In this document: positions 1-39,587 of the stretch, piece after piece
How the letters are laid out: each line of letters begins with the position of its first letter
How positions within the stretch are numbered: position 1 is the first letter of the stretch
Assembly: GCA_030018435.1 (NCBI GenBank)
Contig: JASEEY010000009.1
Span: 1-49,008, forward strand
Length of the DNA: 49,008 nt
Direction of reading: 5' to 3'
Source: Methanocellales archaeon
GTDB taxonomy: Archaea > Halobacteriota > UBA148 > JAUWXC01
Made by a program: the position numbers and the translations under genes
Notes under the pieces: model-generated
The model's input: only the letters and a program-made list of their open reading frames with translations
Told to the model about the DNA's origin: nothing
Database searches by the model: none

Positions 1-531
<531 letters not shown>

Positions 532-684: not shown

Positions 685-794
685 GGGCTCGTAGCTCAGT
701 TGGAAGAGCGTCGCCTTTGCGATGCACGCGGTTCGAAGAAGCGCCGTGCACACAAAACAGGCGAAGGCCCTGGGTTCAAATCCCAGCGAGTCCA
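685..794 (+). tRNA. tRNA-Ala(TGC) with a 37-nt intron
   Basis: Located in the rRNA spacer, the usual euryarchaeal place for tRNA-Ala. Acceptor stem GGGCTCG (685-691) pairs with CGAGTCC (787-793); discriminator A794; D-stem GCTC at 694-697; anticodon stem TCGCC (711-715) with GGCGA (760-764); T-arm CTGGG/CCCAG. The loop places anticodon TGC at 718-720 and G37 at 721. An intron fills 722-758, at the canonical 37/38 site. It contains the hairpin TGCACG (723-728)/CGTGCA (745-750). CCA is not encoded. Confidence 0.95.
722..758 (+). other. tRNA-Ala intron
   Basis: Intron of 37 nt between tRNA positions 37 and 38. Its 6-bp hairpin (723-728 with 745-750) is typical of the central helix of archaeal tRNA introns cut by the splicing endonuclease. 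Exact ends are inferred from the tRNA fold. Confidence 0.85.
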
Positions 795-1007
795 TCAAAC
801 TTTTAAAAAAGTTTGATCAAAAAAAGAAAAAGTGCACCCGAAGTGGTGCACGAACGATCAACCCTTTCGAGGGTTGTGGTGCACTTGGCGAAGCAATTCG
901 TCAAGGAAGGGTAGATGGCGGATTAATTAGACTCGTAATCTCGCTAGGTGAAGCCGTGTATAGGTGGTATTTCGAAAGAAACAAGCGACCCGGACGCTCA
1001 CTGAGTT
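795..1007 (+). other. tRNA-Ala to 23S spacer with tandem hairpins
   Basis: This spacer is largely a string of perfect inverted repeats: TCAAACTTTT (795-804)/AAAAGTTTGA (807-816), GTGCACC (832-838)/GGTGCAC (845-851), and CAACCCT (859-865)/AGGGTTG (870-876) with a TTCG loop. GGTGCAC occurs again at 878-884. The sequence before the 23S includes TAAACTGGCA (1011-1020), which pairs with TGCCAGTTA after the 23S (3986-3994) and belongs to the terminal stem. The 852-879 segment recurs in the tRNA-Gly intron on the opposite strand. Confidence 0.75.
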
Positions 1008-3997
<2,990 letters not shown>

Positions 3998-4165: not shown

Positions 4166-4215
4166 TACGAGACTGCGAGCGAAGCGAGTAGTCGAGGTAA
4201 TAAAATTCACGTATG

Positions 4216-8015: not shown

Positions 8016-8987
8016 CTACACGTTAGACCGACGCATTTCTTTCCACTTTACGCCCATATTAAATAATTGTCTGAACAATACTATCAAGCCACATATTTGT
8101 AGTATCCAGGCGTGCACGATTAGTCCAAACAATTTAATCGTGAAATCCATTGTATCATCAGATAACCGCCACAATCGTATGCCATATAGTAATACTATGG
8201 GGCTGAACAGGAATATGAAAAAAGGTATTATCATCGCAGAAAACCATGTGATTTTTCGACTCATGGGAATTTTTACCCGTTTGAATTTTGCGACGTTCTT
8301 CAACCCTTCGTAAGCTCCTGTTAGCCATCTCACCCTTTGGTGATAATAGTCCTTTGTGGATATAGGAGCTTGCTCGCCTACGCGCGTTGTATCTACGAGG
8401 ACTGCGGTTTTTCCCTCTAAATAGAACTGCTGCATCAAGTCTACATCTTCGCAGGTCGCATCCTCATTCAATCGTCTGTCCGTGAAAATTCTCGCATCTA
8501 AGACGCTGATCAAGCCGTTAAACTGCTTGAATCCGTCACAGCGCTCAAGCAGCCTGTACAAATCTGACATGAGAGCATATTCCGCCGCAACGATCCTCGT
8601 GGTTATGCTGGCTAGGGGATTTGTGATATATCTCGGCGCGCTGGCGATCACAGCACCGTCTCCTAATGCCTTGATGCATTCGATCAGAAAATTTTTTTCT
8701 GGGCGACTATCAACATCAAAGAAGGCGAGATAATCTGTCTCGCCTATTGAATCCAGCGCATCGTTGATCGCACCCGCCCTTCTTCCACGCCTGCTATGCC
8801 TGACGATCACGTTAACGTTCTTGGCCTGTAGGAACTCTACACGCGGGTCCTCGCCTGCGACATCGATGACGTACGTCATGCGTACGTTTAGGTCTCCGCG
8901 TTCTAACTTGGATAAGGACTCAAAAGACCTCTCCACCAGTGAGAGCGGCTCATTTGGTGATACGGGAACGACGACATCCAATTTCAT
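8016..8987 (-). CDS. Processive-type GT2 glycosyltransferase
   Basis: Membrane-bound glycosyltransferase of 323 aa. A GT-A fold domain occupies about residues 1-245, with an acidic nucleotide-sugar motif FFDVDSRPE (DxD), a second acidic NEDATCEDVDL site, and QRVRW matching the QxxRW motif of cellulose synthase-like processive enzymes. Two transmembrane helices follow near 250-275 and 288-310. The start ATG lies 2 nt after the stop of the upstream 97-residue gene. Substrate unknown; the neighbouring flippase-like gene suggests an envelope or lipid-linked glycan. Confidence 0.85.
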   Translation of the reverse strand: MKLDVVVPVSPNEPLSLVERSFESLSKLERGDLNVRMTYVIDVAGEDPRVEFLQAKNVNVIVRHSRRGRRAGAINDALDSIGETDYLAFFDVDSRPEKNFLIECIKALGDGAVIASAPRYITNPLASITTRIVAAEYALMSDLYRLLERCDGFKQFNGLISVLDARIFTDRRLNEDATCEDVDLMQQFYLEGKTAVLVDTTRVGEQAPISTKDYYHQRVRWLTGAYEGLKNVAKFKRVKIPMSRKITWFSAMIIPFFIFLFSPIVLLYGIRLWRLSDDTMDFTIKLFGLIVHAWILQICGLIVLFRQLFNMGVKWKEMRRSNV

Positions 8988-39366: not shown

Positions 39367-39587
39367 TGCGGCTGCCGGGATTTGAACCCGGGCTTCAAGC
39401 TATTTCCGCAACCCTCAAAAGGGTTGATCGTTTCAACGACCTATCTCACTTCGCTCGATAGGTCATGGACTGTTTTTTTAAACGGTGTTTTTGATAGTGC
39501 TGCCGAGCGAATGTAACACCTTTTGATCAACCTTTTCGTAAAAGGTTGGTTGGGAAGCTTGAGTCCTAACCACTAGACTACAGCCGC
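39367..39587 (-). tRNA. tRNA-Gly(CCC) with a 149-nt intron
   Basis: On the minus strand: acceptor GCGGCTG pairs with CAGCCGC; D-stem GTC/GAC; anticodon stem CAAGC/GCTTG; anticodon CCC; T-arm CCGGG/CCCGG with TTCAAAT loop; discriminator A. The exons together give a normal 72-nt tRNA. An intron at 39402-39550 sits at the canonical 37/38 site. CC but not CCA follows the discriminator. The 3' end is directly against the marC stop. Confidence 0.9.
39402..39550 (-). other. tRNA-Gly intron made of four hairpins
   Basis: 149 nt, long for an archaeal tRNA intron. Perfect inverted pairs, in plus coordinates: CAACCCT (39409-39415)/AGGGTTG (39420-39426); GACCTATC (39438-39445)/GATAGGTC (39457-39464); GGTGTT (39484-39489)/AACACC (39515-39520); AACCTTTT (39529-39536)/AAAAGGTT (39540-39547). 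No reading frame and no box C/D or H/ACA pattern is seen. Segment 39406-39433 matches the rRNA spacer at 852-879 in reverse orientation (25 of 28 positions). Confidence 0.82.

Follow-up and report, generated by a model that had tools for sequence, protein, structure and literature searches.

REP-type elements are short dispersed palindromes that have no gene of their own and are moved by Y1 (TnpA-REP) transposases. Mitochondrial genomes carry repetitive hairpin and double-hairpin elements, short palindromes that reside in spacers and rRNA genes, vary between species and encode no enzyme, and their mechanism is unknown (PMC2800124). The gain of tRNA and rRNA introns in archaea is an open question. 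Transposition of tRNA introns was described in Thermoproteales (Fujishima et al. 2010); a review gives its mechanism as unknown (PMC4090602), and it is also named in PMC4731332. BHB introns of 16S rRNA, including short hairpin introns of less than 50 nt, were found in Thermoproteales and Desulfurococcales-like sequences, with locus 1093 among the 13 known loci (PMC4496867). In Caldiarchaeum, the gain of a tRNA-Thr intron, seen as presence and absence at the population level, was attributed to the integrase-driven integration of a mobile element (PMC3293823).

We analyzed a window of 49,008 nt, the whole stretch of DNA under study, which corresponds to contig C29 in the draft genome of an archaeon (G000; 1.02 Mb, 29 contigs, 95% complete). 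The window starts inside the 16S rRNA gene of an rRNA operon with the order 16S, tRNA-Ala, 23S, tRNA-Cys and 5S. Hairpin copies were identified with a strict pattern, GATCAANCNTTT-n-AAANGNTTG, and with R1, a covariance model built from equal-length hairpin copies, whose E-values are rough. The consensus of the hairpin designated hp1 is CAAMCTTTT-n-AAAAGKTTG-ATCAAAA. Genome-wide counts come from a search of the whole genome, and the context within the genome was read in 389 kb of stretches that include the window. The genome-wide strict count is the figure to trust for enrichment, because tRNA and hairpin hits had guided the choice of the 389 kb.

Architecture of the tRNA-Gly(CCC) intron

The gene and the components of its intron are as follows.

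39367 to 39587, minus strand: tRNA-Gly(CCC) gene (Rfam RF00005, 49.8 bits; ARAGORN anticodon ccc)
39402 to 39550, minus strand: 149-nt intron at position 37/38 with a BHB motif (ARAGORN i(38,149); BHB scan; intron-free orthologues in four related genomes)
39521 to 39548, minus strand: hp1, the 5' hairpin module, CAACCTTTT-acg-AAAAGGTTG-ATCAAAA, with a 9-bp stem (R1, 48.2 bits; strict pattern)
39484 to 39520, minus strand: hp2, the second palindrome, GGTGTT...AACACC, with a 6-bp stem and a long loop containing ATTCGCTCG (read from the sequence)
39438 to 39464, minus strand: third palindrome, GACCTATC-gagcgaagtga-GATAGGTC, with an 8-bp stem (count of CGAGCGNAGYGAG in the genome against a control)
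39409 to 39429, minus strand: 3' hairpin, of the hp1 type in reverse orientation, GATCAACCCTTTTGAGGGTTG, with a 7-bp stem (strict form; related copies in introns)

Rfam and ARAGORN called the gene independently and on the same strand. An earlier note had described a 149-nt intron built of four hairpins; ARAGORN placed the intron at exactly 39402-39550, the BHB motif fits this position, and all four hairpins were located. The insert has the features of a BHB intron, namely two 3-nt bulges (CAA and AUA) around a 4-bp central helix formed by exon UUCC and intron GGAA, an outer flanking helix (CAACC/GGUUG), and a predicted removal that restores the intron-free RNA, a normal tRNA-Gly. The endonuclease gene is also present in the genome, as EndA was recognized by two PF01974 matches in one frame (C23:27256-28053). 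From the BHB geometry and this splicing endonuclease gene, we infer that the insert may be tolerated because it is spliced, as the earlier note had proposed.

The structure of the intron revealed that its first and last hairpins belong to a single kind of element and point in opposite directions. In the minimum-energy fold, these two hairpins pair with each other over a long range, with a predicted energy of -45.7 kcal/mol compared with -42.2 kcal/mol for local hairpins only. This calculated gap is small, yet the long-range form would be the one presenting the splice motif, which suits a BHB intron. The strict form of the 3' hairpin has only two copies in the genome, at 39409-39429 and at 856-876 in the window, and related copies are present in the introns of tRNA-Met (C7) and tRNA-Thr (C11). 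Additionally, hp2 lies within a 72% match (positions 37-209) to the tRNA-Ile intron at C1:25766-25942.

Copies of the modules in the genome and among relatives

The following features of the rRNA operon were compared with the intron.

42 to 86, plus strand: 45-nt insert in 16S rRNA with BHB geometry (CUGU/GCAG and ACCC/GGGU), containing GCAAAAGCGTTTACGGAAAA (empty sites in relatives)
685 to 794, plus strand: tRNA-Ala gene of the rRNA operon, with an intron of its own (Rfam RF00005)
796 to 822, plus strand: hp1 copy of the rRNA spacer, immediately following the tRNA-Ala gene (R1, 42 bits)
852 to 879, plus strand: copy of the 3' hairpin in the rRNA spacer, 25/28 identical (match search, shuffles)
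3592 to 3643, plus strand: 52-nt insert in 23S rRNA with BHB geometry (GCAG/CUGU and AACC/GGUU) (empty site in relatives)
4171 to 4193, plus strand: hairpin between tRNA-Cys and 5S rRNA with an CGAGCGAAGCGAG loop (read from the sequence; also carried by G001 and G003)

The inverse match between 39406-39433 and 852-879 that the earlier note had reported was confirmed at 25 of 28 positions. With up to three mismatches, only these two sites were found in the window, and 0.00 were expected from 100 shuffles. Although inverted relative to each other on the plus strand, the two copies read in the same sense within their respective transcripts. The spacer hp1 and the hp1 in the intron of tRNA-Lys(CTT) are identical at all 27 positions. 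The 12-mer GAGCGAAGYGAG, which the note had regarded as shared with the region after tRNA-Cys, is weak when taken alone and not significant in the window (0.57 expected at one mismatch); what stood was the wider sharing, as CGAGCGNAGYGAG was found five times in the genome and not once in the control, with three of the five copies in tRNA introns.

The inserts in 16S and 23S rRNA, on which the note had also relied, proved to be real. The exact empty site of the 16S insert, CATCCTGTTAAGTCAGGCAACGAG, is present in G001, G003, G005 and G009, and that of the 23S insert is present in G001 and G003, two genomes of the genus to which G000 belongs; a cut at the predicted BHB of either insert gives the empty-site sequence of the intron-free orthologue. 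The GCAAAAGCGTTTACGGAAAA core of the 16S insert is common to the introns of tRNA-Pro (22/23) and tRNA-Ser (19/20), and four genome copies were counted with one mismatch allowed, compared with none in the control. The 23S insert contains an hp1-like hairpin at 3592-3619, a weak match (R1, 26.4 bits, E=0.03). An inverted hp1 pair was also found inside the RNase P RNA gene of this genome (C12; L205:1050-1481), which is confirmed by Rfam and is 432 nt long; the RNase P RNA of G003 is 312 nt long and has one hp1 copy.

The strict pattern was found 10 times in the 1.02-Mb genome and not at all in the control; nine of these copies lie in tRNA introns, and the rRNA spacer holds the tenth. This placement is far from chance, because tRNA introns make up only about 0.17% of the genome and hold nine of the ten copies (binomial, about 1e-24); the tRNA-intron total is a lower bound, since ARAGORN missed a few introns. 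The R1 search revealed 21 matches, which correspond to 17 distinct places once duplicates from both strands were merged. All 17 lie in tRNA introns (including three D-loop introns of tRNA-Leu), the rRNA spacer, the 23S insert or RNase P RNA, and none lies in a protein gene of this genome. In the 389 kb, palindromes ending in TTGATC were found 15 times, compared with once in the reversed sequence; tRNA introns hold 12 of them, the rRNA spacer holds two, and the remaining one is an imperfect copy in the ORF at 8016-8987. Both orientations of the modules occur. The modules are of several kinds and nested in one another (hp1, hp2, a 51-nt double hairpin and the 16S-type module), and on sequence grounds they appear to form a dispersed family.

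Two further arrangements were observed in this genome. The three tRNA-Leu genes with D-loop hairpin introns, a non-canonical position, are located at C26:22381, C22:11589 and C23:69959. A long nested array of modules, with hairpins within the loops of other hairpins, directly adjoins the end of the tRNA-Arg(CCT) gene around C26:45495.

Comparison with close relatives revealed filled and empty sites with exact boundaries. The tRNA-Gly(CCC) gene has no intron in G005, G007, G008 and G010, whereas its intron is 27 nt long in G006, 28 nt in G009, 47 nt in G001, 54 nt in G003, 106 nt in G002, about 110 nt in G004 and 149 nt in G000. Between G000 and G002, the tRNA-Gln(TTG) sequences match at 149 of 153 positions once a single 51-nt hairpin block is set aside, and those of tRNA-Met match at 101 of 103 once a single 112-nt block is set aside; the G002 tRNA-Met block holds the composite that is also present in the G000 rRNA spacer (92% over 64 nt). 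In tRNA-Ile, all 138 aligned bases are identical, and the two genes differ by a 51-nt double hairpin on the G002 side and a 105-nt block on the G000 side. Because every relative with a readable site is intron-free, the simplest reading of the 16S and 23S inserts is that the G000 lineage gained them. The spacer hp1 is present in G000 and G003 and absent in G001, where it looks like a loss between ATCAAA repeats. Some presence/absence differences, such as this one, could be deletions instead of gains, and both gain and loss of modules probably occur. Judging from these alignments, the modules appear to be recently active in this genus. The idea of the earlier note that a mobile hairpin family had spread into RNA genes is supported by the enrichment in these genes and the differences between close relatives; further copies exist elsewhere in the genome, and a chance origin of the shared hairpins was ruled out by the shuffles and controls.

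Two observations were made in single relatives. The predicted intron of the G004 tRNA-Met gene (L219:1144-1508) is 290 nt long, which seems long for an archaeal tRNA. In G001, an hp1-like match (L215:991-1018, 32 bits) lies in frame in a hisD-like gene, and the protein is approximately six residues longer at this place than that of one Altiarchaeales relative; this could be a coding insertion or chance.

Across 60 genomes of the phylum, R1 found many copies in the order of this archaeon and in one further family (f8) and near zero elsewhere. The f8 genomes G015, G024 and G042 contain 12-18 R1 copies each. Of the f8 copies that were read, the majority are not within tRNA genes, among them two that start 2 nt after a tRNA end, and in these three genomes ATGCTTCGC often follows the hairpin. 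Among the matches listed from a scan of 84,980 genomes, the strict pattern was present in Methanosarcina, Altiarchaeota, Woesearchaeota, Thermococcus and Methanobrevibacter, and also, with several copies, in some bacteria of the Oscillospiraceae (including Acutalibacter) and Aminicenantes; only three strict-pattern matches were found in viral contigs. The AAAAAGTGCACC sequence that adjoins hp1 in the rRNA spacer of this genome was 93% identical over 44 nt to a Woesearchaeota sequence (L110, 6672-6753) that carries this hairpin as well, which hints that the distant copies may be homologous rather than convergent. The letters of the hairpin were not found in the open literature; subscription papers were mostly outside this search, so this is weak evidence for novelty.

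Explanations for the spread of the modules

We consider it likely, with a probability of roughly 0.8, that the BHB introns of this archaeon are built and enlarged by mobile palindromic modules that are common to RNA genes. Shared sequence, near-exclusive placement in RNA genes and clean presence/absence between close relatives support this reading. Similar introns were found across tRNA isodecoders in an all-against-all comparison, and some were apparently gained recently relative to close relatives, as in transposed tRNA introns. The 149-nt insert would have grown from a minimal form of approximately 27 nt, which persists in related genomes, by acquiring palindromic modules. Long-range pairing of the inverted hp1 pair at the intron ends would provide the splice motif with its outer helix, and EndA and the RtcB ligase could thereby excise the cargo in its entirety. 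Where the module lies in a spacer or in RNase P RNA, it may instead fold as an extra helix. The places in which modules are found are presumably those where splicing by EndA or folding neutralizes them, and insertions elsewhere in the genome would be eliminated by selection.

The modules may be copied at the DNA level, perhaps by an enzyme acting in trans or by recombination or template switching at palindromes. In the 51-nt double hairpin of two tRNA introns, inspection by eye showed the local hp1 arm three times, in direct, inverted and again direct orientation (AAGG-CCTT-AAGG; AAGTT-AACTT-AAGTT), a pattern that might reflect template switching at a palindrome. Mobilization of the Y1/REP type was rejected, as no Y1 transposase was found in G000, G002, G003 and G004 (genomes 63-97% complete) and no hp1 was found next to the Y1 genes of relatives. 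A MITE of the transposase type was also discarded: the boundaries differ, and there is no target duplication of fixed length, as repeats of AAGG, AAAGTT or ATCAAA are present in some cases and none are present at the 16S and 23S inserts. Spread of the retroelement type was likewise rejected, as no reverse transcriptase (PF00078) was found in six genomes of the order, including this one.

Gene conversion or homologous recombination between tRNA paralogues could also copy whole introns, with the hairpins as passive cargo. The tRNA exons offer the homology for such recombination, and along most of their length (72%) the tRNA-Gly(CCC) and tRNA-Ile introns carry their modules in the same order, which is what copying of an entire intron would give. 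However, modules are also present at sites that have no homology to tRNA (16S, 23S, RNase P RNA and the rRNA spacer), both orientations of the modules are found, and single blocks set apart introns that are otherwise near-identical; this explanation is already weakened, and we regard it as quite unlikely. Another possibility is that excised introns enter other RNAs by the reverse action of EndA and RtcB and are then copied into DNA by reverse transcription or recombination. Such a route would explain why the new 16S and 23S introns hold modules of tRNA introns and why their sites are precisely those at which a BHB forms, but a search of six genomes of the order found no reverse transcriptase, and many events place a module into an existing intron away from the splice site; mobility at the RNA level is thus improbable.

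Two other explanations were weighed. Since a BHB needs complementary ends, CAACC/GGTTG stems could have been selected repeatedly, and the shared sequence would be a preference of EndA or an RNA-binding site. The hp1 arms are indeed the outer BHB helix in many introns; nevertheless, conservation extends to parts that belong to no BHB (the core GCAAAAGCGTTNACGGAAAA, hp2 and the ATCAAAA tail), and neither the rRNA-spacer copies nor those in RNase P RNA are introns. Such convergence, already weakened by these copies, seems very unlikely. The hairpins might otherwise have an ordinary role near RNA genes, reused there as transcription terminators or RNA-stability elements, which would agree with their location in f8 (G015, G024 and G042) and Methanosarcina, where they lie outside tRNA introns and sometimes just after a tRNA gene. 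However, termination within tRNA introns, 23S rRNA and RNase P RNA would be harmful, and sister genomes differ in the presence of the hairpin at the same gene, which leaves this reading highly improbable as well.

Within the preferred reading of mobile modules that build BHB introns, we tentatively propose a more specific form, which we hold to be somewhat less likely than not. In this form, the modules would be non-coding mobile palindromes specialized for genes of structured RNAs, whose inverted ends also serve as the splice-motif helix; by landing in a tRNA or rRNA, such an element would create or enlarge a spliceable intron. They would represent a selfish element made safe by EndA and RtcB, with related hairpins across several archaeal phyla.

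Comparison with known systems

REP-type elements resemble the modules as dispersed palindromes and differ from them in that no Y1 gene was found in the present genome, no hp1 was found at the Y1 genes of relatives, and the location is in RNA genes. The mitochondrial hairpin elements resemble the modules in their description, and they differ in that they were not described in spliceable introns (PMC2800124). The Caldiarchaeum case is similar in the presence and absence of an intron in a tRNA gene, whereas small palindromes are involved here (PMC3293823). The 45-nt hairpin BHB intron of 16S rRNA is, by our own reading of the sequence, at about the same locus as the short introns reported previously (E. 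coli 1092/1093), but it belongs to another phylum and its core is common to tRNA introns (PMC4496867). Short hairpin introns in 16S and 23S rRNA outside Thermoproteales matter for primer design and rRNA annotation.

The presence of filled and empty sites in the same genus, of nested modules and of modules across RNA genes allows gains, losses and boundaries to be followed at single-base resolution. Intron transposition in Thermoproteales is similar in that very similar BHB introns occur across tRNA isodecoders and were gained recently (PMC4090602; PMC4731332). Compared with that precedent, the new features are another phylum, a palindromic unit that also nests in introns, and targets that extend to the rRNA spacer, 16S, 23S and RNase P RNA. 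By analogy, the present case is a variant of archaeal intron transposition that combines features of known systems in one genome of another phylum.
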